A stretch of 45,048 nt of DNA from Ignavibacteria bacterium (GTDB taxonomy: Bacteria; Bacteroidota; Ignavibacteria; Palsa-1295): contig JABDDM010000011.1 of the NCBI GenBank assembly GCA_013287605.1, positions 1 through 45,048 of the forward strand. The letters run 5' to 3'. The position numbers were made by a program, and so were the translations under genes. Every line of letters starts with the position of its first letter. The stretch's first letter is position 1. This document shows positions 8,158-45,048 of this stretch, piece by piece. The notes under the pieces were generated by a model. The model had not been told where the DNA came from and made no database searches. It was given only the letters and a program-made list of their open reading frames with translations.

Positions 8158-8221
8158 TGTCAGAATTGAGGATGAGAACTCAGAGACGATTAACGCTCTT
8201 TGAAGGAGTTGGAAAATCAAT

Positions 8222-9934: not shown

Positions 9935-10037
9935 ATGATTAAGAACCTCAATATACGGCAATTGTTACATGAGGCACAAATTCTTGCCTCATTTCTTCGC
10001 TTAACTTAACGAAGAATTCATCCCGTTCAACGCGCGC

Positions 10038-11594: not shown

Positions 11595-14500
11595 ATGATG
11601 AGAGCGTGTGCTGTGTTCGTCGTTTTTGTGATGGTGGCTGCGAAGTCCTACGCGCAGCCATCGGCCATTCAGCACGCCCTGCTGGATTCCCGCGTTCGCG
11701 GGAATGACACGTCCCAATCTTCATCCTTCATCCCTCATCCTTCAGCCTTGCCCGCTGATTCCCGCATTCGCGGGAATGAGACGTCCCATTCTTCATCCTT
11801 CATCCCTCATCCTTCAGCCTTGCCCGATTGCTCCATGGAATTTATTCCGAACCTGGGGCAGCTCTCGGGTAAGCACGGTGAGGCGCTGCCGGATGTGAAT
11901 TATTATTCCCGGTACCGAGGTCTGACGATTTATTACTCACCAAGAGGGATGCAGTTCTTCTTCTCGCGCTTGATCCGAAAGCCCGATGTCTATGTCAGCA
12001 AATTTGCACCTCCCGGCATTCATGATCCACGCGGCGATACGTTGTTCTCGTACCGCGTCGATCTTAGTTTTGTTGGTGCAAACAGTGCGGCGAAGATCAT
12101 TCCTGATGAAGTGCTCGATGATCATTCCAATTACTATATCCCCCGCTTCCCAAATGGCCTGACCGATGTACCCGCCTATGGATCTCTCCTCTATCGAGAG
12201 ATATATCCGAATATCGATATGCGGATCTACAGCACTGAGCGTGGGATGAAGTATGATTTCGTAGTGCATCCTGGTGGTGATCCTTCGAGAATCCGAATGC
12301 ATTATGATGGGCCAGATAGTCTCATAGCGGCGAATGGCGTTGTGACGATCTATTCGCCATTCGGGACGCTCACCGAAGCGAAGCCTCTTTCCTATCAATC
12401 GCTTCCTTCCGGTGATATTGCCAGCGGACTTCAGAGCAGCGTGCCTACGAGCTATGTCCTGAGTGGTCACGATCTCACGTTTGCGATTGGTGCATATGAC
12501 ACGAGCATGCCGCTCGTGATCGATCCTCCACGGGTCTGGGGCACATACTTCGGTGGCAGCAGCTACGACTGGTTTATCGGAAATCGTGTGGATCACAACG
12601 ACAACATCTTCGTAACTGGAACATGTCTTAGTGCGGGGTTCGGAACTGCTGGCACACATCAGGATACGCTGAACTCGCTCGACGGTTATAATTATGATGG
12701 TATCGTTGTAAAATTTAGTCCGGCTGGTGCCCGGATATGGTCAACGTATTATGGTGCAGGTCTAACGGAAGGTTGGGGCGTTGCAATTGATCGCGCCCAG
12801 AATGTGATTGTTGATGGTCACACGTTCGATGATACCTGCATAGCGACGTCAGGCGCATTCCAGACTCGTCTAAATAATAATACTCCCGGCGACCATGCGT
12901 GGGATGGGTTTATCGCAAGCTTTGATTCTCTCGGTCATCGGTATTGGGGGACGTACTTCGGCACAGCAGATACTGATCTTGTCTATGATATCGCTGCCGA
13001 TTCTGCAAATAATATTGTGATCGTCGGTTATACGTCAAGCACTTCCGGCCTTGCATCTCCTAGCGCGTACAAGACGAGCAGAGTTCGCACGGCTTCGTAT
13101 GATTACGGCGGATACATTGCGAAGTTTTCCTCAGGAGGGACACGCCTGTGGTCCACGTACTATGGCGACACAACGAGCAACTGCCTTGGCGTTTGCATCG
13201 GCGCCGGAGATTCGGTGATCGTTAGCGGCACCACAGTTTGCAAAGCTGGGATCGCAACAGCGGGCGTTTATCTGAGCACGCTCGCAAATTATGTTGCAGG
13301 CTACATCGTAAAGTTTTCGTCATCGGGTACACGGAGCTGGGGCACCTATGTCGATGGTGCATCAGGCTATTACGGAACCGCTATGTATGGCGTTGCGTCA
13401 GGAGCTGATGGCTCGATCTATACGTGCGGCGTAACGTGGGCGGCTACGGGACTAGCCACTGCGAATGCCTATCGCACGTCAATTCCAAGTGGGAATGACG
13501 CATCCATCTTAGAAATATTTGATGCAAGAGGCAATCGGCTTGCTGGCACATACTATGGAAATTCTATTCGCTCCGAGATCGGGTTTCGCGTTGCCGTTGA
13601 TCCCGATGGGAATGCGTACGTTGGCGGATGGACCGATGATAGCACGCACATCGCAAGCGCAGGAGCGTTTCAGAGTTCGGTCATTGATACGAATGTCTCC
13701 TTCCTTGCAAAGTTTTCAAAAGATGGTGCGCGCAGATGGGGCACGTATTTCGCCGGCAATGGTCATCCAGGCGGCTGGGATCCGATCTATGGTCTGGCGA
13801 TCGATCATCACGAACATCCCATTATTTCAGGATTAACAGGCAGTGATTCCGGGATCGCAACCAGCGGATCGTTTCAAAGCACGTATGGAGGAGGAAGCAC
13901 GATTTATGGCGATGGCTTCCTGGTTAAATTCTGTGACACATTAAAGACTCACCTTCGATTTGCGAGAGATAGTCTCATGTGCTTTGGCAGCATTGACACG
14001 CTCGCAACAACACCGGGTTACATAAGCTATCAATGGCGGCGTGGCGGCACAATTATTCCGGGCGCTACGTCAAGTCGTTACGGCATTCCAATTACACAAG
14101 CGCCTGGGTCTTATCTCTACACCGTCGACATCGCTGATCCAAGGATCTGTGTCTCTACGACCGACACGCTAACACTGGTGATCCGAGCGCTCCCAAGCAT
14201 TAATGCCGGACCAGACAGAATAACGTGTCTGAAGACCGGCGTGCAGATCGGCAATGCGGCAACGGGAGGGCTTGCGCCGTATCAGTATCATTGGGTACCG
14301 GACTCTGGATTGAGTTCTTCCTCGACGGCGTCTCCAATTGCCACGCCAAAACGTACGACACAGTATATCGAGATCGTTACAGATTCAAACGGATGTCAAT
14401 CGCAGGATACTGTGATCGTAACGGTTCGTGGTCTTCCTCAGATGATCGCTCCGCCCAATGTTGTTTATTGTGTTGGAGGAAGTAGTGCAATCGGAACTCC

Positions 14501-17183
14501 GGCAATAGGAGGAGTTGCGCCGTACACATATAGCTGGACGCCAGCATTGGGACTGAGCGCGACAAATGTAGCGCAACCAATCGCTTCTCCAGCAAACTCT
14601 ACGACGTATCACGTTCATATCACTGACGCGAATGGCTGCGATAGCTGGGATACGATCAATGTCGTCGTGACTGCTCCGCCTGTTGTGACGCTTGTTCCGT
14701 CAGGCCCGCAAAAGATCTGCGTCGGGGATTCGCTCAGGATATTCGCGCCAAGCGGGATGGCTTCATATCAATGGTCGGATGGTGAAACGAGCAGATCCAT
14801 TCTCGCGAGACAATCCGGAGCCTACTCGGTTGCTGTGCAGGACGTCAGTGGCTGTTCCGGCAAGAGTGACACCGTTGTGTTAACAGTAATCGCAAAACCA
14901 TCGCCTTCGATTGCAGGTCCAGATGCTGTTTGTCCGTTATCGACTGCAAGCTACGCAACGCCATTCGATCCGAATGCTCGATATAATTGGACGCTCTCCG
15001 GCGGAGGCACGATCACAAGTGGCGCAGGCGCTGATAGCATAACGGTTAACTGGACGCTTACTGGTACCTGGAAGGTAATGCTTCGTGATTCTAATACTGC
15101 CGGTTGCGAACGAGATACCTCGCTGATGGTAACAATCGGCACGACGCTAATACCAAGTATTAGCCCTGCCGGACCGATAACACTTTGCAAAGGTGACAGC
15201 GCGGTTCTGCACGCTCAAAAAGGGTTTACGACATATTCCTGGAGTAGTGGACAGAGTGCGGATTCGGTCGTTGTGTCGAAGTCCGGGAATTACTTTGTTA
15301 CAGTAACTGGATCCGGTGGTTGCACTGGCACTTCGCAGGTCGTTGCGGTCAAGGTAATCTCTACTGCCAAACCGCAGCCGAAACTTGTGGCGACGAAAAC
15401 GGTACTTTGTGCAGGCGATAGTTTGCAGCTAGCTACAACGCAAGGATTTGCATCGTATCAATGGTCAAACGGTTCTACAACTGCTTCGATTGAAGTCACG
15501 CACGCAGGCACATACGCTGTCGTTGTTACAAACTCCGACGGGTGCATGGGTATATCGGATAGTGTGAAGATTACAACAGGCCCAATACCACAGGCTGTTA
15601 TCACGCCAGGCGGACCGGTTACATTCTGCTATGGCGATAGTGTAAGACTTACTGCGACAGCTGGCGGTGCGTCCTATTTGTGGTCAGATGGTGAAACGGG
15701 GTCTTCCGTCGTTGCGAAGAGCACGGGTGATTATTCGGTAACTATCCAGAATGCCGCTGGCTGTTCAGCTACTTCCCTTCCTGTTCATGTGCGTGTTGGA
15801 GCTCAACTCAAACCAGTTATCACAGGCCCTTCCGCGGTGTGTCCAAATTCGCAAACAAATTATTCGATCACAGCGATCAATGGAACAACCTATAATTGGG
15901 CAGTTACAGGCGGGACGATCGCGAGCGGACAATCGACAAACTCAATAAACATTAACTGGGGAGCAATCGGAACAGCAACGATCGCGATAACGCAGACCGA
16001 CACAGCCACTGGATGCCTGGACAATTCTGTGATCAACGTAACAATCGATAATAATCTTGTGCCTGATGTCACAGCAAGCGGTCCCCTTGCCTTCTGTCAG
16101 GGTGATTCTGTCACACTTGACGCTGGGGCAGGTTATGCAGCCTATCAGTGGCTGTTGAATAATACACCACTCGCTGGAGCTACGCGGCAAACACTCACCA
16201 TACTGGCGAGTGGCAACTATAGCGTCTTCGTAACAAATAGTGGAAGCTGTCAGGGAACATCAAAGACAATGGCGGTGACGGTGAATCCTCTTCCTGTCGC
16301 ACCGGTCATCACACAGTCTGGTTCGACGCTGACGAGCACATCGGCAATTAGATATCAATGGAGCTTGAACGGTACGCCAATAAGCGGTGATACGAGCCAG
16401 ACACTCGTTGCAGCAACATCAGGAGACTACACGATTCTAATATTCGATCAGAATGGCTGTTCTGCTATTTCAAATCCGTTTACATATCGCGATAGCGGTA
16501 TGACGGTTGTCGCGGTTCCAGCACTTTTGCAGGCGAATCCCTCAGATCCAGTGCAGATCCCGCTCGAATTGCTTTCTTCGCAGAACGTAGTGCAAAGCGG
16601 ACCGATGCATTACACCGCATCACTGCGCTTCAACAAAACTTTGCTTGCGCCTTCTGGTCAAACGCCTCCAGGTGTCATTCAAGGCAATGATTTGATCGTC
16701 ACCATCAGCGGCACCAATCCGCTTCCGCTCGGGACGACTGCCGGTACGCTGAGGACTCTGGACTTCATTGCAACACTTGGCAATGATACGTGTACGGATG
16801 TATCTATCGACGCCTTCCAGTGGACTGATGGCGCTGTGAGTGTATCGCGAAGAAGCGGGCGGTTCTGCCTGACGGGTGTATGTGAAGCGGGGGGCAAAGT
16901 GCGACTCATCGATCCGAATGTGGAGCTAAGTCTATCACAAAGCCATCCGAACCCCGCGAAAGGGAATGCTCAAGTCGAGTATGACCTTAGAGAGCAGGGG
17001 GAAACAGAACTCTATATCACCGATCTAATGGGCCGCGTCGTGAAGACCGTTGTGACCGGCACGCAGATACCGGGCCATTACACAGCGCAATTCGATCTCA
17101 ATGGTCTCGCACAGGGAACGTACATCTACATTCTCCAGACTCAGAGTGGGAAGCTTTCGCATTTGATGCAGATCATTCGATAA
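11595..17183 (+). CDS. Giant SBBP/Ig-like repeat secreted protein with T9SS sorting domain
   Basis: This 1862-aa protein has a signal peptide (MMRACAVFVVFVMVAAKSYAQ), then about 48 residues encoded by two copies of an inserted repeat (residues 29-79). Residues 81 to about 300 (MEFIPNLGQLSGKHG onward, with YREIYPNIDMRIY) match the DUF7948-type domain that precedes SBBP repeats. Residues 310-790 hold seven-bladed beta-propeller (SBBP) repeats with a recurring pattern G(T)YFGG...D...G...T. Residues 795-1620 hold many Ig/PKD-like modules with recurring FCQGDSVTLDAG and YQWS motifs. A cohesin-like module follows, then a T9SS domain (HPNPAKGNAQVEYDL, LYITDLMGRVVKT, QGTYIYILQT). It is likely a surface adhesin or scaffold. 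The OmpA-like gene follows after 12 bp. Confidence 0.88.
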   Translation: MMRACAVFVVFVMVAAKSYAQPSAIQHALLDSRVRGNDTSQSSSFIPHPSALPADSRIRGNETSHSSSFIPHPSALPDCSMEFIPNLGQLSGKHGEALPDVNYYSRYRGLTIYYSPRGMQFFFSRLIRKPDVYVSKFAPPGIHDPRGDTLFSYRVDLSFVGANSAAKIIPDEVLDDHSNYYIPRFPNGLTDVPAYGSLLYREIYPNIDMRIYSTERGMKYDFVVHPGGDPSRIRMHYDGPDSLIAANGVVTIYSPFGTLTEAKPLSYQSLPSGDIASGLQSSVPTSYVLSGHDLTFAIGAYDTSMPLVIDPPRVWGTYFGGSSYDWFIGNRVDHNDNIFVTGTCLSAGFGTAGTHQDTLNSLDGYNYDGIVVKFSPAGARIWSTYYGAGLTEGWGVAIDRAQNVIVDGHTFDDTCIATSGAFQTRLNNNTPGDHAWDGFIASFDSLGHRYWGTYFGTADTDLVYDIAADSANNIVIVGYTSSTSGLASPSAYKTSRVRTASYDYGGYIAKFSSGGTRLWSTYYGDTTSNCLGVCIGAGDSVIVSGTTVCKAGIATAGVYLSTLANYVAGYIVKFSSSGTRSWGTYVDGASGYYGTAMYGVASGADGSIYTCGVTWAATGLATANAYRTSIPSGNDASILEIFDARGNRLAGTYYGNSIRSEIGFRVAVDPDGNAYVGGWTDDSTHIASAGAFQSSVIDTNVSFLAKFSKDGARRWGTYFAGNGHPGGWDPIYGLAIDHHEHPIISGLTGSDSGIATSGSFQSTYGGGSTIYGDGFLVKFCDTLKTHLRFARDSLMCFGSIDTLATTPGYISYQWRRGGTIIPGATSSRYGIPITQAPGSYLYTVDIADPRICVSTTDTLTLVIRALPSINAGPDRITCLKTGVQIGNAATGGLAPYQYHWVPDSGLSSSSTASPIATPKRTTQYIEIVTDSNGCQSQDTVIVTVRGLPQMIAPPNVVYCVGGSSAIGTPAIGGVAPYTYSWTPALGLSATNVAQPIASPANSTTYHVHITDANGCDSWDTINVVVTAPPVVTLVPSGPQKICVGDSLRIFAPSGMASYQWSDGETSRSILARQSGAYSVAVQDVSGCSGKSDTVVLTVIAKPSPSIAGPDAVCPLSTASYATPFDPNARYNWTLSGGGTITSGAGADSITVNWTLTGTWKVMLRDSNTAGCERDTSLMVTIGTTLIPSISPAGPITLCKGDSAVLHAQKGFTTYSWSSGQSADSVVVSKSGNYFVTVTGSGGCTGTSQVVAVKVISTAKPQPKLVATKTVLCAGDSLQLATTQGFASYQWSNGSTTASIEVTHAGTYAVVVTNSDGCMGISDSVKITTGPIPQAVITPGGPVTFCYGDSVRLTATAGGASYLWSDGETGSSVVAKSTGDYSVTIQNAAGCSATSLPVHVRVGAQLKPVITGPSAVCPNSQTNYSITAINGTTYNWAVTGGTIASGQSTNSININWGAIGTATIAITQTDTATGCLDNSVINVTIDNNLVPDVTASGPLAFCQGDSVTLDAGAGYAAYQWLLNNTPLAGATRQTLTILASGNYSVFVTNSGSCQGTSKTMAVTVNPLPVAPVITQSGSTLTSTSAIRYQWSLNGTPISGDTSQTLVAATSGDYTILIFDQNGCSAISNPFTYRDSGMTVVAVPALLQANPSDPVQIPLELLSSQNVVQSGPMHYTASLRFNKTLLAPSGQTPPGVIQGNDLIVTISGTNPLPLGTTAGTLRTLDFIATLGNDTCTDVSIDAFQWTDGAVSVSRRSGRFCLTGVCEAGGKVRLIDPNVELSLSQSHPNPAKGNAQVEYDLREQGETELYITDLMGRVVKTVVTGTQIPGHYTAQFDLNGLAQGTYIYILQTQSGKLSHLMQIIR
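11685..11828 (+). repeat. Two tandem 72-bp repeats carrying ATTCCCGC/GCGGGAAT dyads, in frame inside a gene
   Basis: Two near-identical 72-bp units start at 11685 and 11757. Each has the dyad ATTCCCGC-N4-GCGGGAAT (11686-11705 and 11758-11777), then ACGTCCCA and a TTCATCC-type tract ending CAGCCTTGCCCG. Being a multiple of three, the pair adds 48 codons without breaking the frame. They are read as SRVRGNDTS and SRIRGNETS followed by SSFIPHPSALP. The dyad is the same as in the spacer at 1811-1905. Confidence 0.9.
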
Positions 17184-35019: not shown

Positions 35020-36030
35020 TCAGATAACAAATTCAGATAGAGCGAGTAAGTATGCACCTGTTCCCCACCACCATTCACCGGTCGTGCGAGCCTTGTAGTA
35101 ATCGGTCGTCCCAGGCCAGGTGCCTTCGGAGGTCCTCGTGAACTTCCCTTCCGCGTCAACGCACTCGGCGAGTCCATTGAATGCTCGTTCGATAAGTCCT
35201 TCGTCGACGAGTGATAAACCAAGATCTTGCGCTCTCTTGTACGCGAAAAGAAACATTGCGGATGCTGAGCTTTCGGGGTACGCATCGGCATCATCAAGTA
35301 TTGTACGCCACAATCCTGTTTGCGTTTGTAGCGGTGCAATAGCTTTCGCGAGAAGTTCGAAGCTGTGCTTAAATTTCCTTCCTTCCGTTTCATGAAACAA
35401 CGGGAGCAACTCCGCTGCTGTCATCATCACCCATCCATTGCCTCGCGCCCATGAGCCATCACTTCGGTGACCTGAGGCATTTTCGTGACAGTGGATGTAG
35501 AATGGCTTGTCGCCGTTCTTGAGAATGTTGAGATGAGATTCGATCTGGAATTGAGCAACCTCCTGCCACGGCTTATTGAGATAACTGCCCACTTTCGCCA
35601 AAGGGACTGCTGCGTAAAAAACGGTATCGATATAGATGTTCGGCAGATCAATGTTATGGAGGATCAGACCGTCACCATTGCGAACCGATTTGTGGATGAT
35701 AAAGTCATAGATTCGCTCTGCCGTCTCGTCGAGCTGCATTTGCATCTCGGGATACCACTTTGCAACTTCTGGATACAACATCCCAAAACTCCATGAGCCA
35801 CAAAAGTAATTGACATACAGGCGTTCATTCAAATGGAAGTGTACCCATGTCTTCAAGTATTCATATGTTGCGTCGTCATACGAAGCAGAGAGGCTTCGAA
35901 GCAGCCCGTACATCGCAAGCGTCTGACCCCAATCGGTTGATTGCGACTGCGGACGATATCGAGGGATCCAGGATTTGCGAATGCGCTCGACAAGTGCTTT
36001 CGCTCGATCGGACGTCTCTTGCTTGTTCAT
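35020..36030 (-). CDS. GH105 (GH88-like) unsaturated rhamnogalacturonyl/glucuronyl hydrolase
   Basis: The 336-aa alpha/alpha-barrel enzyme removes the 4,5-unsaturated uronate from oligosaccharides left by polysaccharide lyases. Family motifs: TDWGQTLAMYGLL, NIYIDTVFYAAVPLA (with the likely catalytic Asp near residue 136), GDKPFYIHCHENASGHRSDG and WARGNGWVMMTAAELL (residues 195-210). Near the C-terminus ESSASAMFLFAYKRA and GEWWWGTGAYLLAL complete the fold. I see no signal peptide, so it is probably cytoplasmic. The start is ATG 36030 (MNKQETSDRAK); TTG 36033 precedes it by one codon. The product would rearrange to 5-keto-4-deoxyuronate, the substrate of the isomerase and dehydrogenase encoded upstream in the operon. 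Confidence 0.92.
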   Translation of the reverse strand: MNKQETSDRAKALVERIRKSWIPRYRPQSQSTDWGQTLAMYGLLRSLSASYDDATYEYLKTWVHFHLNERLYVNYFCGSWSFGMLYPEVAKWYPEMQMQLDETAERIYDFIIHKSVRNGDGLILHNIDLPNIYIDTVFYAAVPLAKVGSYLNKPWQEVAQFQIESHLNILKNGDKPFYIHCHENASGHRSDGSWARGNGWVMMTAAELLPLFHETEGRKFKHSFELLAKAIAPLQTQTGLWRTILDDADAYPESSASAMFLFAYKRAQDLGLSLVDEGLIERAFNGLAECVDAEGKFTRTSEGTWPGTTDYYKARTTGEWWWGTGAYLLALSEFVI

Positions 36031-36037
36031 CAAGCGG

Positions 36038-36673
36038 TTATGGTCGTTTGGCTGCCGCTACTGCCATTCTCGCGCGAGCGCGAACTTCACCGAAATCTTC
36101 GTACTCCATATCAAGATCAGTCACGAGTGAGGAGCCGAGTCCAACTGCTGCAGCGCCAGCCGTAAACCATTCGCTGACATTTGAGGGCGTCACACCATTC
36201 GTCGGCACAAATTTGATATCAGGAAACGGGCCACGAATGGCCTTGATATAATTGGGTCCAAGTCCGCCGACTGGAAAAAGCTTTATGAAATCCGCACCCG
36301 CAATAGAGGCTTGCCATACCTCTGTGGGTGTGAGAGCACCTGCCATTGAAGCAACTCCAACCTGCTGCGCGACTGCAAGCATATCGAGATCCGTCACAGG
36401 ACTAACTAAAAACTTAGCTCCGCGCTCGACTGCCTTCATCGCTGCCTCGACACCGATTACCGTACCTGCTCCTACGAGCATATCGGGACATGCCTTTTCA
36501 ACAGTCTGAATGGCATCGAGGGCATTTTTGCTATTAAGTGTGATCTCGATGACCGAGATGCCTTCTTCGAATAACAGTGTTGCCAATGTGTCAATACGCT
36601 CCATGCGTTGAAGTCGAATAACTGCGAATAGTCGTGCGTCGAGAATGCGTTTAACGATCGGTGAGAGAGGCAT
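36038..36673 (-). CDS. eda: KDPG / 4-hydroxy-2-oxoglutarate aldolase
   Basis: The 211-aa class I aldolase splits 2-keto-3-deoxy-6-phosphogluconate into pyruvate and glyceraldehyde 3-phosphate. Glu43 lies in VIEITLNS, the PLP-independent Schiff-base Lys131 in ADFIKLFPVGGLG, and VPTNGVTPSNVSEWF replaces the usual PTGGV loop (Asn for Gly). LVGAGTVIGVEAA and FLVSPVTDLDML are conserved. The start ATG 36673 gives MPLSPIVKRILDARLFAVIR, typical of Eda. It lies 7 bp upstream of the GH105 gene and is the last step of uronate breakdown in this operon. No kdgK kinase gene is seen here; the enzyme might act on unphosphorylated KDG or on another 2-keto acid. Confidence 0.92.
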   Translation of the reverse strand: MPLSPIVKRILDARLFAVIRLQRMERIDTLATLLFEEGISVIEITLNSKNALDAIQTVEKACPDMLVGAGTVIGVEAAMKAVERGAKFLVSPVTDLDMLAVAQQVGVASMAGALTPTEVWQASIAGADFIKLFPVGGLGPNYIKAIRGPFPDIKFVPTNGVTPSNVSEWFTAGAAAVGLGSSLVTDLDMEYEDFGEVRARARMAVAAAKRP

Positions 36674-36681
36674 GCAGATTT

Positions 36682-37338
36682 TTAAAAGGTCTTAAAGCTA
36701 TCGAACAGCTCGCGAGCACTCTTACCTTGACCGAGTCCGAGCGCAGTCTTGCGCTCGCCTGTAAGCGTGGCATCGAGTTCGTCCATGAGCTGCGAGAGCA
36801 TGGTCTGCGGAATCGACACGATCCCGTTTACATCGCCAAAGATAATATCCCCAGGAGCTACATCTACGCCGCCGATCTTTATCGGTATATTGTAAGAATG
36901 CATTTGGCCTCGACGCCGGATATCCCGGACCGTCCGATATGTTCCGAAAACAGGAAAGCCTAGCTCTTCGATTTGCTCGAAATCTCTCACACCGCCATTT
37001 ACCACTGCGCCCCGCGCCCCTCTGGCGATGGCCCGACTGGACATGAGTCCGCCCCAAAGCGCGGCGTCGATATCTTTGTCGGCAGCGACCAGGACGATCG
37101 CGTCCTGCGGAATACTGTCAATCATTTCAAGCAGGATGTCGATCTCAACGTACTCATTGGTCGGAACAACTCTGCACGGATACGCAAAGCCTGCGACCTT
37201 GATCTGTGGATCAAATGGAATTGACTGGATCGTATGGTCGAATACCTGCCCTGATATGCCCATGCGATCCATCGTGTCGCTGACGATCGGCGTAAAGAGA
37301 GACTCTAAGAAGGCAAGCTGTGGATGTTGTTCGTTCAT
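36682..37338 (-). CDS. RraA-family protein, possible HMG/oxaloacetate aldolase
   Basis: The 218-aa protein is of the RraA/4-hydroxy-4-methyl-2-oxoglutarate aldolase family. IVSDTMDRMGISGQVFDHTI is the family N-terminus. ALWGGLMSSRAIARGARGAVVNGGVRDF has the G-x20-R-D arrangement (Gly97, Arg118, Asp119) of the metal site. The C-terminus MLSQLMDELDATLTGERKT is typical. True RraA inhibits RNase E; members in sugar-acid operons are thought to be aldolases or lyases. Its position between isomerase and KDPG aldolase genes suggests a second aldol cleavage of a keto acid. The ATG overlaps the isomerase stop by 4 nt (ATGA). Confidence 0.85.
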   Translation of the reverse strand: MNEQHPQLAFLESLFTPIVSDTMDRMGISGQVFDHTIQSIPFDPQIKVAGFAYPCRVVPTNEYVEIDILLEMIDSIPQDAIVLVAADKDIDAALWGGLMSSRAIARGARGAVVNGGVRDFEQIEELGFPVFGTYRTVRDIRRRGQMHSYNIPIKIGGVDVAPGDIIFGDVNGIVSIPQTMLSQLMDELDATLTGERKTALGLGQGKSARELFDSFKTF

Positions 37339-38126
37339 CGAAGTCCTGTAGGCATTGATTCAAAACCCGGCTGAACATTTACATTCGCAAGTGTGCGCCA
37401 GGTATCGTCCTCAAGCGAACAAAGTACCCAGCAGAAGTTGACCGGATATCCTGGCGCGGCAACGTTCGGATGATAGCCACGCACAATCGTTACGGCATCA
37501 TTTTCAGCGACAGGCCGCACAAACTCTGGATTTTCCAGATCAGAATAAATGAATTGGGTAGCGAAGCCTGGGCGTGGCATATCAAAAAAGAGATAAAGTT
37601 CTTCACGTGTGGCAGCGTGTTCGTGCGGCGGCCATGAGGTCCAGTTGCCTGGCTTTGACATGGTAACACCCATGAGCAATCTTGAACCTTCGACGTTCTC
37701 GGCGAGCACTTTGTGGATGTCGCGATAATAGGGCTCAGCACCTACTCGAAGCGTAAGCGAATCGCTCGAGGCAACATCACGCTTGAAGTTCACATATTTC
37801 GTTGGCCATGTTTGCGCGGTTGGTGCTGATGCCTCTACGATATCCACACTCGAATCAGTTGACACAGAGAACTCGGCACCCCGCGAAATGTACAAGCCAT
37901 CGAAGCGCGAGAGCGGATAACGATCATTACCTACCGTGACTTCGGCGTCACCATGCATGCAGAGAAGCGTTGTCTCTCTTCCTTCGTTTTTCCCAGCGGC
38001 GCTTTGCCCCTTCGATAGAATGATCCTGCCAGCATGTATTGCCTTGAATTCGGAATTCTCAGGAGTGATCGAGATATTCCTTCCAGGTTTGGATGCTGTA
38101 TCCTTAAAAAGCCACTTTGAAGACAT
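37335..38126 (-). CDS. KduI/IolB-family uronate isomerase
   Basis: The 263-aa cupin-type isomerase is of the KduI/IolB family (5-keto-4-deoxyuronate or 5-deoxyglucuronate isomerase). The C-terminal metal-binding part is clear: WTSWPPHEHAATREELYLFF (His, His, Glu), then RGYHPNVAAPGYPVNFCWVL with the final His. The N-terminal half is a second, degenerate beta-barrel. The sequence is nearer IolB than classical KduI, but KduD sits next to it, so isomerisation of 5-keto-4-deoxyuronate is the likely job. I start at ATG 38126 (MSSKWLFKDTASKPGRNI); the frame to 38177 overlaps the end of kduD. It overlaps the RraA gene by 4 nt. Confidence 0.85.
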   Translation of the reverse strand: MSSKWLFKDTASKPGRNISITPENSEFKAIHAGRIILSKGQSAAGKNEGRETTLLCMHGDAEVTVGNDRYPLSRFDGLYISRGAEFSVSTDSSVDIVEASAPTAQTWPTKYVNFKRDVASSDSLTLRVGAEPYYRDIHKVLAENVEGSRLLMGVTMSKPGNWTSWPPHEHAATREELYLFFDMPRPGFATQFIYSDLENPEFVRPVAENDAVTIVRGYHPNVAAPGYPVNFCWVLCSLEDDTWRTLANVNVQPGFESMPTGLR

Positions 38127-38145
38127 GAGGATCTGTTCGACTATG

Positions 38146-38913
38146 TTAATAAGATAGAAAACCGCCATCAACAACAACGATGTGACCGTTCATATAATCT
38201 GAAGCTTTTGATGCCAAATAGACGACTGTGCCTGCGAGATCATCTGGTTCGCCGTACCGGCCAGCCGGTATACGCGAAAGTATCTCCTGATTTCGCTCTG
38301 CATTTGAACGCAATGCCGCAGTAGCATCAGTCTTAATATATCCAGGCGCAATCGCATTTACACAAACGCCATATTTAGCCCATTCATTTGCTAAGGCTTT
38401 CGTAAGCTGTGCGACCCCACCTTTTGCTGCTGCATATGCACTCACGTTGAGTCCCCCACCGAAGGAAAGCAAGGAGGCGAGGTTAATGATCTTGCCACTC
38501 GACTGCTCGACCATCAATCTACCAACAGCCTGCGCCCAGCTAAAGACCGCATTCAGGTTTGTGTCGATCACTTCATTCCAGTCTTTGCCAGAGTAGGCGA
38601 TCGCTGGTGAGCGTCGGATAATGCCTGCATTATTGATCAGGATGTCAATCGATCCAAACGAGTCCGTCGCTGTTTTCAATGTCGTCATCATGTCGCTCGG
38701 AACCGTAACATCTGCCGTTACGATGATGAATTTCGTTGACAGCAAGTTGGCTGTCTCCTTGAGTTCTGCTTCATCACGCCCAACGAGTACAATGTTAGCG
38801 CCAGCCTGACTGAGAGCTGAGGCGGCAGCTCTTCCAAGGCCTCGCGAAGCTCCCGTCACGATTGCGGTTCGACCGTCGAGGCCAAATTGCGCGTTCAAAA
38901 ACTGTTCGGTCAT
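38146..38913 (-). CDS. kduD: 2-deoxy-D-gluconate 3-dehydrogenase / DKII reductase (KduD-type SDR)
   Basis: The 255-aa classical short-chain dehydrogenase reduces 3-deoxy-D-glycero-2,5-hexodiulosonate to KDG. The cofactor motif is TGASRGLG (20-27), then NNAG (94-97). Catalytic Ser147, Tyr160 and Lys164 lie in IINLASLLSFGGGLNVSAYAAAK. The family line APGYIKTDATAALRSNAERN and IPAGRYGEPDDLAGTVVYLAS matches KduD closely. The ATG overlaps the stop of the flavin monooxygenase gene (38910-38913) and the isomerase follows after 19 bp, so it is a central gene of the uronate operon. Confidence 0.92.
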   Translation of the reverse strand: MTEQFLNAQFGLDGRTAIVTGASRGLGRAAASALSQAGANIVLVGRDEAELKETANLLSTKFIIVTADVTVPSDMMTTLKTATDSFGSIDILINNAGIIRRSPAIAYSGKDWNEVIDTNLNAVFSWAQAVGRLMVEQSSGKIINLASLLSFGGGLNVSAYAAAKGGVAQLTKALANEWAKYGVCVNAIAPGYIKTDATAALRSNAERNQEILSRIPAGRYGEPDDLAGTVVYLASKASDYMNGHIVVVDGGFLSY

Positions 38914-40046
38914 GAGCTCACAGTGGTTTGTGCTGCCTCGTAGCGCGCAATAAATTCCGGATCGCGTTTGCGGAGATTTTCGTGGTCGATCCGCTTGCTG
39001 CGCATCATTAATTTGTATGCGAATGAAAGCGGATCGAGATGCATGTAGTCGCGTGCATGCTCAAACCAGACCAGGCTTTCATAGGCAGCCTGTTGATACT
39101 CGTCGATCTGCGGCTTCCTGCGCTCGGTAAATAACTCGAGAGCAGCTCCGACAGATGGTTGCTCTTGCAAAGCTTCGAACAGAGCGATGGAGTCTTCAAG
39201 TGCAAGTTTTGTCCCTGATCCGATCGAGAAATGAGCCGTATGAAGTGCGTCACCGAGAAGCACAACGTTTTCAAAGTACCAGTTGCGATTCTTCACGAGC
39301 AGGAAATTAATCCATTGTGACTTATTCGAGAGCAAGTTATTGCCTCCAAGATCTCTCGCGAAGACTCGTTCGAGGTATGCAGCGCTTTGAGCTTCCGTCA
39401 TGTTCTCAAACCCGGCAGCCGACCACGTTTCGTAGTCGCACTCGACAATGAACGTGCTCATATCACGGTTGAATTTGTAGCTGTGTGCCGCGAATACTCC
39501 CCCTTCGAACTCACGAAAGGTCAATGTTAATGCGTGAAAGAGTTGGCGTGTACCCCACCAAATATATTTATTCGGGCGAGTACTGATATCCGGTTTGAGC
39601 TGCTCAGTGTAGCGCTGACGCACCAGGCTATTGACTCCATCGGCACCAACAACAAGATCATGGTCGCGTAGGGCCTCCGGATCCGGAATGAACGTGTTGA
39701 ATTGAATCTTCGCCCCAAGCGCTTCAGCGCGGCGCGAGAGGATCTGAAGCATTTCAAGCCGCTGAAGCCCGGCGAATCGATTGCCTCGTATGGTGATTGT
39801 GTCCTCCCCTTTGACTATCGCAACATTTTCCCAGAGCGCAAACGCCTTTGCGATGCTATCGTATGATTCAGCGTCATAATCCCGGAGTTTGCGAAGTGTC
39901 TTATCAGAGAAGACTACCCCCCAGCCGAATGTATCGTTGGGACCATTTCGCTCATAGATGGTGATTTCATGGCGCGCATCCTGCTTCTTCAATAGAATAG
40001 CGAGGTAAAGTCCTGATGGCCCACCACCGATAATGCCGATCTTCAT
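38910..40046 (-). CDS. FAD-dependent aromatic hydroxylase, salicylyl-CoA 5-hydroxylase-like
   Basis: The 378-aa class A flavoprotein monooxygenase starts with MKIGIIGGGPSGLYLAILLK (FAD GxGxxG) at ATG 40046; GTG 40067 would add seven residues. WGVVFSDKTLRKLRDYD after ERNGPNDTFG is the line seen in salicylyl-CoA 5-hydroxylases and related tryptophan/indole hydroxylases. VVGADGVNSLVRQRY is the DG motif and VVLLGDALHTAHFSIGSGTKLAL the GD motif. Known salicylyl-CoA enzymes are often fused to a second domain; this one stands alone. It heads the uronate operon and overlaps kduD by 4 nt. An aromatic substrate does not fit uronate breakdown, so its role is open. Confidence 0.88.
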   Translation of the reverse strand: MKIGIIGGGPSGLYLAILLKKQDARHEITIYERNGPNDTFGWGVVFSDKTLRKLRDYDAESYDSIAKAFALWENVAIVKGEDTITIRGNRFAGLQRLEMLQILSRRAEALGAKIQFNTFIPDPEALRDHDLVVGADGVNSLVRQRYTEQLKPDISTRPNKYIWWGTRQLFHALTLTFREFEGGVFAAHSYKFNRDMSTFIVECDYETWSAAGFENMTEAQSAAYLERVFARDLGGNNLLSNKSQWINFLLVKNRNWYFENVVLLGDALHTAHFSIGSGTKLALEDSIALFEALQEQPSVGAALELFTERRKPQIDEYQQAAYESLVWFEHARDYMHLDPLSFAYKLMMRSKRIDHENLRKRDPEFIARYEAAQTTVSS

Positions 40047-40120
40047 ATAATGTGATAGCTCTGACACCCATTCGAATCAGCACAAATTTAGGGAGCTTTG
40101 GTGACTGAGCCGTGTGCGGG

Positions 40121-43100
40121 TTACTTTCCGGGGATCCGGGTAAAGCTGATGAAGAGATCGTACTCGGAAACGGAGATTGTTCGTGTCTCAAGCGTGACCT
40201 GCGTATTACCGGACTGCCAGCCATAACGCTTCTCCTTGCCAACATCGAATGTGCTCTCAGGATAGCCATATTGGCTCGTAAGCCAGTTGAGCAGGCAATC
40301 CTGATTGCCCATCCTATTAGCGTCGTGGCCGTGGAATACCATATTCATTGCCTTTAGCACATTGTTAGTGTCGAAGTCGATCATGCGAGCGAGCGGCAAT
40401 CTGCACTCACCGGCAACCAGGTTATCGGAGATGGTTCGGACTCCACCAACGACCTTCGTTTTCAAAAGGATATCCCTCGGCTGTCCGAGTTTAGGAAGAA
40501 CCTTGTCTGCTGTCGTACCAAGAGCGATCTCAGTTAAGTCCGGATGCGCAGCGTTCGTTGTCGGCGTCTTAATGTTCGTCGCGGGCGAAACGGCTGTGTC
40601 CGGCGCTCCCTGCATACGCAGGAGAAAGTTCAGGGTGTCGATGATGTCACCGTCGTTCGAATTATGCAGTTCAAAGTTGATTACCGGAGGATCGGCAGCA
40701 AGATGCAAGCGCTTTAACTGCTCCGAATCAGGATACACCTGATACTTGCCAGGAGTAAGTCCGATGTTGTAGAATTCACCTGTTTCATAACTCATGAAGT
40801 CATCTGGCATCTTAATTTCTTCACGATCGCCAGTAAGACTCTTCACCCTGAGCTTGATTCCGCCCTGTGCCTCAGGCCCACCTTTCCCAACAAGTCGTAC
40901 GTAACCGCTGATCTGTCCCGAAACGGTAATCGGAATATTCACCTCATTAAAGCTATTCGCATCGACCGTTACGCTGCAGGTTTGGTACTTTGGGATCCAC
41001 GCAAGGTTTTCGACGCCATCCGTGGAATTCCTCAGGATGTAGGTATAGTAGGGATCCAGATCCATCACGCGTATGATGCCGTTGTCCTGTCTTATGACAC
41101 GCCCAGCATTGATCCGAACTTTAAAATTTTTGACAATGGGCTCATCGCGCTGATAAATTCCATCATTGTTCAAGTCAAGGAACGGCCGAACAATGATCCC
41201 AGCTCGCTCGACAAAGTTTCGGTTCGAAAGGACAACTTCGTTGCTCGATCCATCAAAAATGATCGAGCCTTGAGATAATGAGCCAACCGAATTAGTACCA
41301 CCATTTGTACCGCCATAGGTTCCGACTTGCGCCCAGGGCAGCGTGTAGCTGAGATTCAGCGAGGCGCTGATGCTCTTGCTGATGAGATCATCGCGAAGAA
41401 AGAGCCCGATCCGGCCTGCTGTACCAAAGTTACGCTGGAAGGAAGCACCGACATGGGTAATTTGATGCAATCCGAAATCATATCCTGTTTCAGGATTGAT
41501 CATAATATTGAAGGGGCCCAAAAGAAAGAACGCAATTCCCTCGCTCACCCCCTGACTGGCAAAGCTGAAATTCGTTCGAGTGAAGCCTGCCAGAGTTGTA
41601 AGTGTCAATGGGATAGAGAATAACTCTCCGCTTAATAATGCTTTCAGGTCTGAAGCGGCGGTACCATCATTTCCAGGGGCATCGGTTGCCAAAACTGAGA
41701 GTGCACCTGTAAGCGGTTCTATCGGAACGGAAATGTTTAAGCGTCGCTGGTCCCCTTTTTGCGTTAATCCAGAAAAGCGCTGATTCGCGAAAGGATGCTC
41801 GTAGAAGGCTTCGACAGAAAGACCACCCGACAGGAAGCTAAGGTTGCCATTCAATCCCGAGCCGCTGACCCATTGCCCATTGAGCAGAAGACCATTGATT
41901 ACCTGAGTCGAAAAGGATGCGAACGGCGCAAACGGAGAGAAGCCCGGCTCCTTATAATACTTAAGACCCCCACCGACCGTAAGCAGGCTGCTGACTCCAA
42001 CGTCGGCATTCAATTGAGCAATATTGTTCTTGAAATCAAGTGTATTCTTGTTCGTGCCATAGGTCAGAGAGTAGTCGACGCGTCCGGCCGGCAAGAATGT
42101 ATAAGGAATGCGCACCTCCAAACTCTTCGTTCGAACTTCGCCATTCGGTCCATAGAACTTTAGCTTCGCGCTTGCAGCACCATAGCTCAAAGGAACGGCA
42201 AATGAGTAGTTGCCGGCCGGATCCGCCCTTACCGAATTTACCAGCGCTTCATTAACGTATAACTCGACGGTCCACCCTGGCTCTGTCACATCACGGATAG
42301 TATATTCAGCCAGAGCACTGGTAAATTGAATTGGTTTATTAGTGATCTGGAATCCGATGACCGAATCCGAAAGGGCGTTCGTTGCTGCAGAAGAGATCGT
42401 GCCAATCGTGGTTTGAGTGAGCCACTTGGAATCGGGAGTCGCATAATTCCAACGCCAGAGCGCTTCCTGTCCTATCGTATGCCAATCATGAGGTGCCTGA
42501 GGAGAGCCATTATAGTGGGCGTCAATGTCTCCACCAAATAAGTCACCACCAAAACCGATGAGATAATTCTCCGTGTGGGTGTTGTTCGATGCGTCGTGCG
42601 GATCACGAGTCATTAACGTTGTAACCGACCAATCGAGCACCCCAGCACTTACGAACGCCCGACGAAGGGGAAACCGCCGATCGACCTGCACATCACCTTC
42701 CGCCGCAGCGATGTTGCCCGCATTTTTTTTTCGGTTCGCCTCTGAGACGGCGGGCAGTTCACGGTCACAGAATAGTTTGATGTCGAGATTGTTAAAGTTG
42801 AACTGACAGTCAATCCCGAAGACCTGCATATAAATATCAGTTCGCAGGAAATCCCCAGCATTCGTAACGATGAGATCCTTCGGCGTTAAATTAACATGAG
42901 ACTGGCCTTTACGAATGTCGTGCCCCTGCAAATCAATGACATAAGTCTCGGATTCATCAATGAAGAACCCTGAAATCGTTTTTCGATCTGCGGAGAGATC
43001 CGACTTTACCTTTACAAAATCGAGCACATCCATGATCGGGATGTAGACATCCTTATCAACAATAATCGCGGGAATCACACGATGACCAACTTTTCTTAAA

Positions 43101-43276
43101 GAGAGACTTACGCTGATCTCATCCGCGTTGGGAGGCAATTCGTAAGGATGGGGCGCGGGAACAATGATCACTTCTTTGAGTGCAGCACGAGTGCTACCTG
43201 CCCCAAAGAGGGGAGCCAACAAGAAGAGGATGGCCAAGGACCATCGAAGCTTGATGTGATGTGCCGCGATCGTCAT
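40121..43276 (-). CDS. Divergent outer-membrane usher-like protein with extra C-terminal domains
   Basis: The 1051-aa protein has a signal peptide (WSLAILFLLAPLFGAGSTRA). Residues 33-175 form an N-terminal domain (IPAIIVDKDVYIPIMDVLDFV) like the ligand-binding front of ushers. The segment near 335-395 (WTVELYVNEALVNSVRADPA, then YTFLPAGRVDYSLTYG) is the typical usher motif before the barrel. Residues 400-690 are beta-strand rich. At about 692 there is RPFLDLNNDGIYQRDEP, an SdrD-B/carboxypeptidase-regulatory-like module. The last 130 or so residues (EIALGTTADKVLPKLGQPRD onward) resemble a SmpA/BamE-like domain, unusual in ushers. A PapD-like chaperone and a DUF4402 protein lie directly upstream, supporting a chaperone-usher role. 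It could be a different secretion pore. Confidence 0.72.
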   Translation of the reverse strand: MTIAAHHIKLRWSLAILFLLAPLFGAGSTRAALKEVIIVPAPHPYELPPNADEISVSLSLRKVGHRVIPAIIVDKDVYIPIMDVLDFVKVKSDLSADRKTISGFFIDESETYVIDLQGHDIRKGQSHVNLTPKDLIVTNAGDFLRTDIYMQVFGIDCQFNFNNLDIKLFCDRELPAVSEANRKKNAGNIAAAEGDVQVDRRFPLRRAFVSAGVLDWSVTTLMTRDPHDASNNTHTENYLIGFGGDLFGGDIDAHYNGSPQAPHDWHTIGQEALWRWNYATPDSKWLTQTTIGTISSAATNALSDSVIGFQITNKPIQFTSALAEYTIRDVTEPGWTVELYVNEALVNSVRADPAGNYSFAVPLSYGAASAKLKFYGPNGEVRTKSLEVRIPYTFLPAGRVDYSLTYGTNKNTLDFKNNIAQLNADVGVSSLLTVGGGLKYYKEPGFSPFAPFASFSTQVINGLLLNGQWVSGSGLNGNLSFLSGGLSVEAFYEHPFANQRFSGLTQKGDQRRLNISVPIEPLTGALSVLATDAPGNDGTAASDLKALLSGELFSIPLTLTTLAGFTRTNFSFASQGVSEGIAFFLLGPFNIMINPETGYDFGLHQITHVGASFQRNFGTAGRIGLFLRDDLISKSISASLNLSYTLPWAQVGTYGGTNGGTNSVGSLSQGSIIFDGSSNEVVLSNRNFVERAGIIVRPFLDLNNDGIYQRDEPIVKNFKVRINAGRVIRQDNGIIRVMDLDPYYTYILRNSTDGVENLAWIPKYQTCSVTVDANSFNEVNIPITVSGQISGYVRLVGKGGPEAQGGIKLRVKSLTGDREEIKMPDDFMSYETGEFYNIGLTPGKYQVYPDSEQLKRLHLAADPPVINFELHNSNDGDIIDTLNFLLRMQGAPDTAVSPATNIKTPTTNAAHPDLTEIALGTTADKVLPKLGQPRDILLKTKVVGGVRTISDNLVAGECRLPLARMIDFDTNNVLKAMNMVFHGHDANRMGNQDCLLNWLTSQYGYPESTFDVGKEKRYGWQSGNTQVTLETRTISVSEYDLFISFTRIPGK

Positions 43277-43303
43277 GCGATCCCTGCAAATAATGCAGGA
43301 CGA

Positions 43304-44197
43304 TTAGTTTAGGCTGAGTTCTGCCGAAGCGAGTACCGATTCTTTGGTCGCCTCAGGTGAATAGGTCTGATATTCGACCACTAGCTTTCCGTTCGAGAGC
43401 GAAACCCCATCGGGCAGAAGCAGTGGAAGCGAAATATTTCTATGAGCATTCGGCATTAAGACCGCCACACCCTTTATAACACCTATGATCGTCTCTTCAC
43501 CTTTCTTGTTAACAAACTTTGCAATGATCATCCCATAAAGTGACTGATTCCCCGAACGAAAGAGCTTACCACCGAGCATCGGGGCTTTCGTTGCCGAGTC
43601 GTAATGAACCTTCAATTCACCAAGCGAAGCGACTGCTGGCTTTGTGCCATTTCGCACGATAATTGGAATTGCGACTGCCATCGAGGTGGAAATGTTGAAA
43701 TACATCGCCTTCAACGAGTCCGGAACGATCCTGCTGATTTCTTTTGGACGAGGTATAGAGCGAAAAAGGAGATGACTACGATATTCTCCGATCGGAAGAT
43801 CCGAAGGTTTTAGTAGTTGTAAGCGGATCGTCTGCGATTGACCCGGGCCAAGCGTCACTTTTTTCGGGAAGAACCTGATAAGCTTGTCAGCGTACATTCC
43901 ATGAGGATCGAGGTGCGCAGAGTCGATTTGGACGGTAGCACCATTCGTGTCCATCTCCGACTGGATCATGCTTACCTGATAGGTCGCTGTATCGGTCCCG
44001 TTGTTAATCAGAACAACCATGTCATTGCGTTGCTGTCCTTCAAAGACAACGCGCTTTGGGTTGACGATGAGCGGATTAGCCTTCTGCGTTCGAAAATTCT
44101 GCGCCTGTGCAGAACACGTCTCTGTATTGAGCATGAGCGCAACAAGCAGAGAAGCGATTACCGCTAACTGGTACATGAGCGAATGGAGACGTTGCAT
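43304..44197 (-). CDS. PapD-like periplasmic pilus chaperone
   Basis: The 297-aa exported protein has a signal peptide when started at ATG 44197 (QRLHSLMYQLAVIASLLVALML...CSAQ); the frame continues to a GTG at 44224. The first Ig domain has NPLIVNPKRVVFEGQQRNDM and VVLINNGTDTATYQVSMIQ, then PKKVTLGPGQSQTIRLQLL and LPIGEYRSHLLFRSIP, the usual PapD-type strand order with the donor-strand G1 edge. A second domain (SLGELKVHYDSATKAPMLGG onward) follows. Periplasmic chaperones of this type hold pilin subunits and deliver them to the usher. The usher starts 27 bp downstream, and the pilin-like gene is 110 bp upstream. Confidence 0.8.
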   Translation of the reverse strand: MQRLHSLMYQLAVIASLLVALMLNTETCSAQAQNFRTQKANPLIVNPKRVVFEGQQRNDMVVLINNGTDTATYQVSMIQSEMDTNGATVQIDSAHLDPHGMYADKLIRFFPKKVTLGPGQSQTIRLQLLKPSDLPIGEYRSHLLFRSIPRPKEISRIVPDSLKAMYFNISTSMAVAIPIIVRNGTKPAVASLGELKVHYDSATKAPMLGGKLFRSGNQSLYGMIIAKFVNKKGEETIIGVIKGVAVLMPNAHRNISLPLLLPDGVSLSNGKLVVEYQTYSPEATKESVLASAELSLN

Positions 44198-44307
44198 ACG
44201 TGGCTGATTTAGTAATGGTAACACTCTGCTTTTTTCAACGTTAAGTTGTCAACAAACAAAAAATCAATGGCTCAAGAACTTCTATACCTGGGCTCCAGGC
44301 TCACAAA

Positions 44308-44805
44308 TTAATTATAAATCGTTGTCAGAAAATTGGTACCTGAATAAGGACCGTTTGCCTGAGTGGCACCAATGTTAAGCGTTGCTCCAACCTGGATCGT
44401 CTCTTTTCCATTGGTAAGAACACCCGTTCCAGTCTTGGTAAAATGATCGAGGGTCATTGTTTGCGTCCCCCCGGCAACTGTCAGAGTAATCGAACTTGGA
44501 AAGAGGATCGAGTACGAAGCTGCGGTATCGCCAGTGATCTCGAATGAAGCTGGGTGAGGATCGGAAGCCGCCGTGTTGAATAATACAACGCCGCCGCTTG
44601 CGCTCCTCGTGCCAGAAGTTGTGATCGTAACTGATCCTGAACCGGAGCCTGTAAAGAACTCACCGAAATTCCAGTCGGCCAACTGGTTCATTGTGATCGC
44701 CGTCTTTGGCGTTGTCTGCGCTCTCGTCCCGGTAGCAGATAGCATTGCTGCCAACGCAACACAACCGAGAGACACTGGACCGCAAAAACGTCTAAAGCTT
44801 TTCAT
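44308..44805 (-). CDS. DUF4402 pilin-like subunit
   Basis: The 165-aa exported protein has a signal peptide (FCGPVSLGCVALAAMLSATGTRA). The mature part follows the DUF4402 pattern: LADWNFGEFFTGSGSGSVTI, TTSGTRSASGGVVLF, PASFEITGDTAASYSILFP, ETIQVGATLNIGATQANGPY and a final FLTTIYN strand. DUF4402 proteins resemble spore-coat-U/archaic-pilus subunits. There are no Cys residues in the mature part. It is the first gene of the usher locus and should be the exported cargo. Two 16-bp direct repeats lie just upstream of its start. Confidence 0.8.
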   Translation of the reverse strand: MKSFRRFCGPVSLGCVALAAMLSATGTRAQTTPKTAITMNQLADWNFGEFFTGSGSGSVTITTSGTRSASGGVVLFNTAASDPHPASFEITGDTAASYSILFPSSITLTVAGGTQTMTLDHFTKTGTGVLTNGKETIQVGATLNIGATQANGPYSGTNFLTTIYN

Positions 44806-44864: not shown

Positions 44865-45048
44865 CTTGGTGCACTGGTCTCTTGCCGACAGATTGGAGGC
44901 GGGTGCTGCTCAATCAGCATTGATCGTCCAGATGCGGCGAGAAAGCACTCGCCACTGTCATCGTGAACAGGCCTCGAACCGGTCACCTGGCTCTCTGGCT
45001 GCAAGGTCAGTGTGGCACCAGCATTGATTCTTCCAGCTGCACGCGCAC
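44861..45048 (-). other. Possible 3' end of an upstream gene at window edge
   Basis: The minus strand is open for 61 codons from the right edge to TGA at 44861-44863; it reads AGRINAGATLTLQPESQV near the start. That segment is a little like the strand lines of coat-hanger or pilin-like proteins, but it is short, ends in a composition unlike its neighbours, and the region may simply be the promoter of the usher locus. Confidence 0.2.

Follow-up and report, generated by a model that had tools for sequence, protein, structure and literature searches.

A probable chaperone-usher pilus locus with DUF4402 subunits in an Ignavibacteria bacterium, and its relatives in Bacteroidota and Proteobacteria

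The 45,048-nucleotide stretch of DNA analyzed here (hereafter, the window; contig JABDDM010000011.1 of assembly GCA_013287605.1, from an Ignavibacteria bacterium) carries on its minus strand three consecutive open reading frames (ORFs) for a DUF4402 protein, a PapD-like chaperone and a 1051-amino-acid usher, separated by intergenic gaps of 83 and 27 bp (Table 1). We conclude that this locus very probably encodes a chaperone-usher (CU) pilus, and that it belongs to an unrecognized, DUF4402-type clade of such systems. The computed results bearing on this conclusion are the gene order, the predicted fold of the usher, its family links, the diversity of usher tails and the existence of two subunit classes. 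A first-pass annotation, made from the DNA letters alone, had described the three adjacent genes as a CU-like surface-fiber locus with an atypical usher in a genome of the type IX secretion system (T9SS) type. That core reading has held up: the ORFs lie where it placed them, the barrel of the usher is predicted to be plugged, the genes are linked in relatives, and T9SS-sorted proteins (Por_Secre_tail) are encoded. A textbook pilus pathway that was thought to be Proteobacterial is apparently common in a second major phylum, where it has been hidden from annotation, and DUF4402 gains a likely function as a pilus subunit.

The 1051-amino-acid protein is predicted to be an usher, with a plugged 24-strand barrel, an N-terminal domain and two C-terminal domains (CTDs). 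Because it has no Pfam or NCBIfam match, the earlier usher call went beyond current annotation; a usable PDB sequence match was also lacking, both for the single sequence and for a profile. An AlphaFold2 model was built from an alignment of 77 sequences, 74 of them members of the usher family, and has a mean predicted local distance difference test score (pLDDT) of 81, with 591 residues at 90 or above. By our own count from DSSP of this model, the barrel comprises 6+18 strands with the plug after strand 6, and a linker helix (residues 175-193) follows the N-terminal domain. After the plug, the conserved sequence IPYTFLPaGrvdYsltyG aligns with FimD "VPYSSVPLLQREGHTRYSITAG" by hhalign.

Both a fold search and a profile comparison bear out the usher assignment. 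FimD and PapC chains occupy the first 19 places among the PDB structural matches of the model (best E 6.3e-27, probability 1.00); proteins of any other kind begin at about 1e-5. Query-normalized TM-scores of the usher matches are at most 0.39, and we ascribe these values to the additional tail and to domains that are placed differently. When compared with five K-12 ushers, hhalign returned 96.7% (E 4.6e-10), the aligned stretch being the region that follows the plug, and the usher family hidden Markov model (HMM) picked up YraJ with 28 bits.

The Pfam usher model, PF00577, scored above its cut-off in none of 297 sampled genomes of the phylum, and it had no match in the window genome. Among 20 members of the usher family, one matched (E 7e-4). 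Three relatives from another family of the phylum have weak PF00577 matches (E 2e-5 to 7e-4, below the cut-off) and score 719-754 bits with the usher family HMM, and they therefore form a bridge between the family and PF00577. An SdrD-B-like part, which the first-pass annotation took for an added module, corresponds instead to the usher's own CTDs. SdrD_B (PF17210) has no match in the window usher at E 0.1 and matches 12 of 20 relatives; matches to CarboxypepD_reg also occur among the relatives.

The neighboring gene product appears from its sequence to be a two-domain periplasmic chaperone of the PapD type. Taken by itself, this protein matches PapD_N with E 0.012, below the Pfam cut-off; 10 of 30 homologues match that family (best E 9.5e-6), and hhalign against K-12 chaperones gives 88.6%. 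The PapD-like assignment is thus carried by the family and the K-12 profile comparison, the single-protein Pfam match being weak. A search of the PDB with the chaperone profile gave no match at 0.01. A signal peptide was judged by eye, and Arg58 stands at the position of PapD Arg8 (present in 17 of 30 homologues).

DUF4402 is probably a pilus subunit domain, as judged from predicted structure. The AlphaFold2 model of the window protein is beta-rich (pLDDT 88.6), and its 12 best structural matches are all CU pilins. In a comparison with archaic and related pili (Csu, Caf1, CFA/I), the model matches Caf1 and CfaB first and Csu at rank 15, all weakly. An SCPU match in one DUF4402 protein is marginal (E 0.098).

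That only one subunit gene had been seen proved to be an artifact of the window edge. A scaffold gap of 10 N lies directly after the window end and cuts through another DUF4402 gene, whose 3' remnant is out of frame with itself; its two-frame translation reads ...RINAGATLTLQPESQVTG and GLFTMTVASAFSPHLDDQC, the latter ending in a stop. Past the gap lies a complete DUF4402 gene (contig positions 45175-45792, 205 amino acids, E 2.4e-10), so that the locus has a complete second gene and a broken third. All nine DUF4402 matches in the genome fall within its two CU loci. Contig 50 holds the second locus, in which six DUF4402 genes accompany a chaperone gene and an usher gene that is truncated at the contig end.

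Two classes of DUF4402 proteins, with long and short N-termini, are observed. Across 133 subunits, the median distance from the putative signal cleavage site to a conserved FG motif is 18 residues when the gene is adjacent to the usher and 26 otherwise (Mann-Whitney p 1e-16, not corrected for relatedness). The window subunit, with 16 residues before this motif, belongs to the short class; the subunit past the gap has 43. In fiber-forming CU subunits, the donor strand precedes the fold. Members of the short class may therefore be unable to donate, which would suit a position at the tip, and the window protein is a probable tip subunit.

From these results, we infer the following pathway. Subunits would enter the periplasm by Sec, and the PapD-like chaperone would cap them by donor-strand complementation and hand them to the usher. 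The N-terminal domain of the usher would dock the chaperone, the two CTDs would hold, and the usher would polymerize the subunits into a surface fiber by donor-strand exchange. The short-N-terminus subunit of the window would be the tip or first subunit, and the shaft would repeat the long-N-terminus protein encoded past the window edge. In a barrel with an even number of strands, the two termini both lie on the periplasmic side, so a C-terminal tail should act there. By analogy with related ushers, whose tails are of SPOR, OmpA-like and TPR types, the extra tail of the usher may anchor or regulate the platform.

The tails merit separate consideration. Among 109 ushers, 47 have no tail and 36 carry SPOR, and single or few examples carry TPR, TPR with SPOR, OmpA-like or other domains. 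Pfam scores for these tails reach 1.2e-43 for SPOR, 2.8e-26 for TPR_6 and 1.7e-5 for OmpA (below its cut-off). Several usher tails are predicted cell-wall-binding domains that face the interior of the envelope. SPOR and OmpA domains bind peptidoglycan, which makes envelope anchoring the leading idea for the role of a tail. Ushers with SPOR, OmpA-like and TPR tails of their own prompt one to ask how the platform withstands pulling forces. On a FastTree tree of the ushers, the SPOR label needs at least five changes (gains or losses). The window usher groups there with four members of its family that have no tail, suggesting that it gained its own tail separately.

In the window usher, the first-pass annotation had noted extra C-terminal residues resembling SmpA/BamE. 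The residues are present (about 150 amino acids), and the proposed identity is unsupported: hhalign with K-12 BamE gives a probability of 1.4%, and there is no Pfam match, although the tail does contain one BamE-like motif (ialGttadkVlpkLGqP). The tail is 24-27% identical to stand-alone proteins of 168-182 amino acids that carry signal peptides and are encoded in sister genomes. These homologues occur in three genomes of the same bacterial family and in no other genome among 245 of the class; in two of the three, the gene lies between those for YebC and a transglycosylase. This protein family has no Pfam match. All three were misaligned in the structure alignment, and the tail was consequently modeled without useful relatives, which accounts for its low confidence. 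RecJ lies just before YebC in one genome with the stand-alone protein, and RecJ adjoins the CU locus in the window genome. Comparison of these RecJ positions leads us to speculate that the tail may have arisen by fusion with a neighboring gene.

The CU clade to which the locus belongs is widespread in Bacteroidota, occurs in some Proteobacteria and is missed by standard annotation. A strong usher homologue (E <1e-50, our threshold for this count) is found in 66 of 294 genomes of the same class; 98 of the 294 have a match of any kind, including short matches to CTDs. Of 36 distinct usher loci in a genome panel, 35 have the chaperone gene no farther than 9 kb upstream, in agreement with the expectation that the genes stay together. 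The close pairing of DUF4402 and usher in named loci (72 of 76, within 400 bp) likewise favors a CU system. A scan of GTDB yielded 185 verified loci, including those of Chitinophaga, Salegentibacter, Salinimicrobium, Christiangramia, Gillisia, Pedobacter and many Bacteroidales metagenome-assembled genomes (MAGs). The matches in named genomes were obtained with an alignment of close members as the query; a named-genome scan with a single usher protein as the query returned no match. In the open-access literature searched, we found no description of CU systems in Bacteroidetes and no mention of DUF4402.

Sets of DUF4402, chaperone and usher genes are also present on plasmids of Polaromonas (a betaproteobacterium, in which IS6 transposases adjoin the set) and Sphingopyxis (an alphaproteobacterium). 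The gene order is the same as in the window, and subunit, chaperone and usher genes are found together in both the relatives and the Proteobacterial loci. Family HMM scores are 156-264 bits for the plasmid ushers and 172-234 bits for the chaperones. RefSeq names the chaperones "fimbria/pilus periplasmic chaperone" or "molecular chaperone", and it names the ushers "carboxypeptidase regulatory-like domain-containing protein" rather than ushers. These ushers differ from the window protein in being Proteobacterial and about 895 amino acids long, a length that leaves no room for an extra tail. The plasmid loci indicate a cross-phylum clade that is not limited to Bacteroidota.

With the FimD/FimC type 1 pilus of E. 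coli and with PapC/PapD, the window system shares the predicted usher architecture and an adjacent PapD-like chaperone, and its subunits are putatively Ig-like as well. It differs in lying below Pfam and NCBIfam detection (10-14% identity in structural matches), in its DUF4402 subunits, SdrD_B/CarboxypepD_reg-like CTDs and extra tails, and in its mostly Bacteroidota distribution. Type V pili of Bacteroidia (FimA/Mfa1 of Porphyromonas gingivalis) are likewise strand-exchange fibers of Bacteroidota. However, they are built from lipoprotein precursors by protease-triggered assembly, with no known usher or chaperone, and we regard them as a different system.

Several observations weigh against a pilus. 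The structural matches of the DUF4402 protein to pilins are weak (best E 0.013, probability 0.99), and the genome assembly is a MAG of 68% completeness in which a scaffold gap interrupts the locus. In the chaperone, the equivalent of PapD Lys112 is not Lys; 20 of 30 homologues retain Arg191 close by. Finally, many usher loci of Bacteroidia have no recognizable chaperone nearby: among 76 distinct named loci, DUF4402 lies within 400 bp of the usher in 72, and a chaperone was found in only 29.

This last imbalance would also fit an usher-fold barrel that, with no polymerization into a fiber, secreted or displayed single DUF4402 proteins or paired them with T9SS-sorted adhesins. The same explanation gains from a second pattern: in 47 of 80 named Bacteroidia loci, a large ORF ends at most 1.2 kb upstream of the usher, and its product (about 500-2490 amino acids), encoded immediately before the DUF4402-usher pair, has a T9SS-type C-terminus. 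The T9SS type A sorting domain (TIGR04183) was found in 10 of 10 such proteins tested, nine of them above the cut-off, and a C-terminus HMM trained on half of the upstream ORFs recognized 23 of 23 held-out ORFs versus 5 of 162 control ORFs. The window locus, however, resembles polymerizing systems in combining a chaperone with several subunits, of which one belongs to the long-N-terminus class, and we consider display without a fiber rather unlikely there. The large T9SS-sorted ORF pattern is absent beside the window usher.

The frame break in the DUF4402 remnant might instead mark the locus as a decayed or inactive relic. Yet scaffold gaps, such as the one at this break, are common places for assembly errors; the genes for the usher, the chaperone and two subunits are all undamaged; and another contig carries part of a second locus, so this is distinctly improbable. 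That the 1051-amino-acid protein is some other large barrel (a TonB-dependent receptor, an LptD-like protein or a porin) beside unrelated Ig-fold proteins would fit its lack of a Pfam or NCBIfam usher match, but is scarcely credible given that usher chains fill the first 19 places in the PDB ranking, with porins and LptD trailing the best of them by about 20 orders of magnitude, that the plug follows strand 6, and that the gene neighborhood is conserved.

A wider and more tentative proposal, which we hold to be possible though short of an even chance, is that a Bacteroidota branch of CU systems operates jointly with T9SS. In many lineages the usher would be fixed to peptidoglycan through its own tail; it would export a DUF4402 fiber or cap, and a large adhesin brought to the surface by T9SS would be held by the short-N-terminus subunit. 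In many Bacteroidia, the classical chaperone would have been dropped or moved. The linked T9SS-sorted proteins make cooperation of the two secretion routes testable in cultured strains. In loci of Chitinophaga and Pedobacter, a protein of about 2450 amino acids with a T9SS-type C-terminus, a DUF4402 protein and an usher are encoded, with no recognizable chaperone in the DNA that was fetched.

Table 1. Positions of the locus components and of the predicted usher domains in the window
Feature	Positions	Strand	Basis or remark
DUF4402 subunit, short N-terminus, 165 amino acids	44308-44805	-	Pfam PF14352, E 1.8e-25
PapD-like periplasmic chaperone, 306 amino acids	43304-44224	-	GTG start; ATG at codon 10 possible
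Usher, 1051 amino acids, predicted outer-membrane assembly platform	40121-43276	-	AlphaFold2 and PDB structural matches
Usher N-terminal periplasmic domain, residues 51-173	42758-43126	-	Confident in model
Barrel strands 1-6, residues 209-312	42341-42652	-	DSSP of model
Plug domain, residues 323-390, after strand 6 as in PapC/FimD	42107-42310	-	Six short strands, model
Barrel strands 7-24 (18 strands), residues 400-675	41252-42079	-	DSSP of model
CTD1/CTD2 periplasmic domains, residues 680-890	40607-41239	-	Confident beta domains, positioned like the FimD CTDs
Extra C-terminal tail, about residues 905-1051 (~150 amino acids)	40124-40564	-	Predicted periplasmic; model pLDDT low
3' remnant of another DUF4402 gene, truncated at the gap, out of frame with itself	44914-45046	-	Two-frame translation

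Promoter and terminator scans at the locus gave scores no better than those of shuffled sequence. Elsewhere in the window, three large T9SS-sorted proteins are encoded at 2209-9961 and 11595-17183, one of which contains DUF7948, PKD-like and SBBP repeats. The usher gene is immediately followed downstream by a gene for an FAD-dependent monooxygenase (FAD_binding_3; 38910-40067). Beyond it, on the minus strand at 35020-38913, lies a cluster encoding GH88, KDPG/KHG aldolase, RraA-like, KduI and short-chain dehydrogenase proteins, which probably serves the breakdown of uronates (from pectin or a similar substrate).

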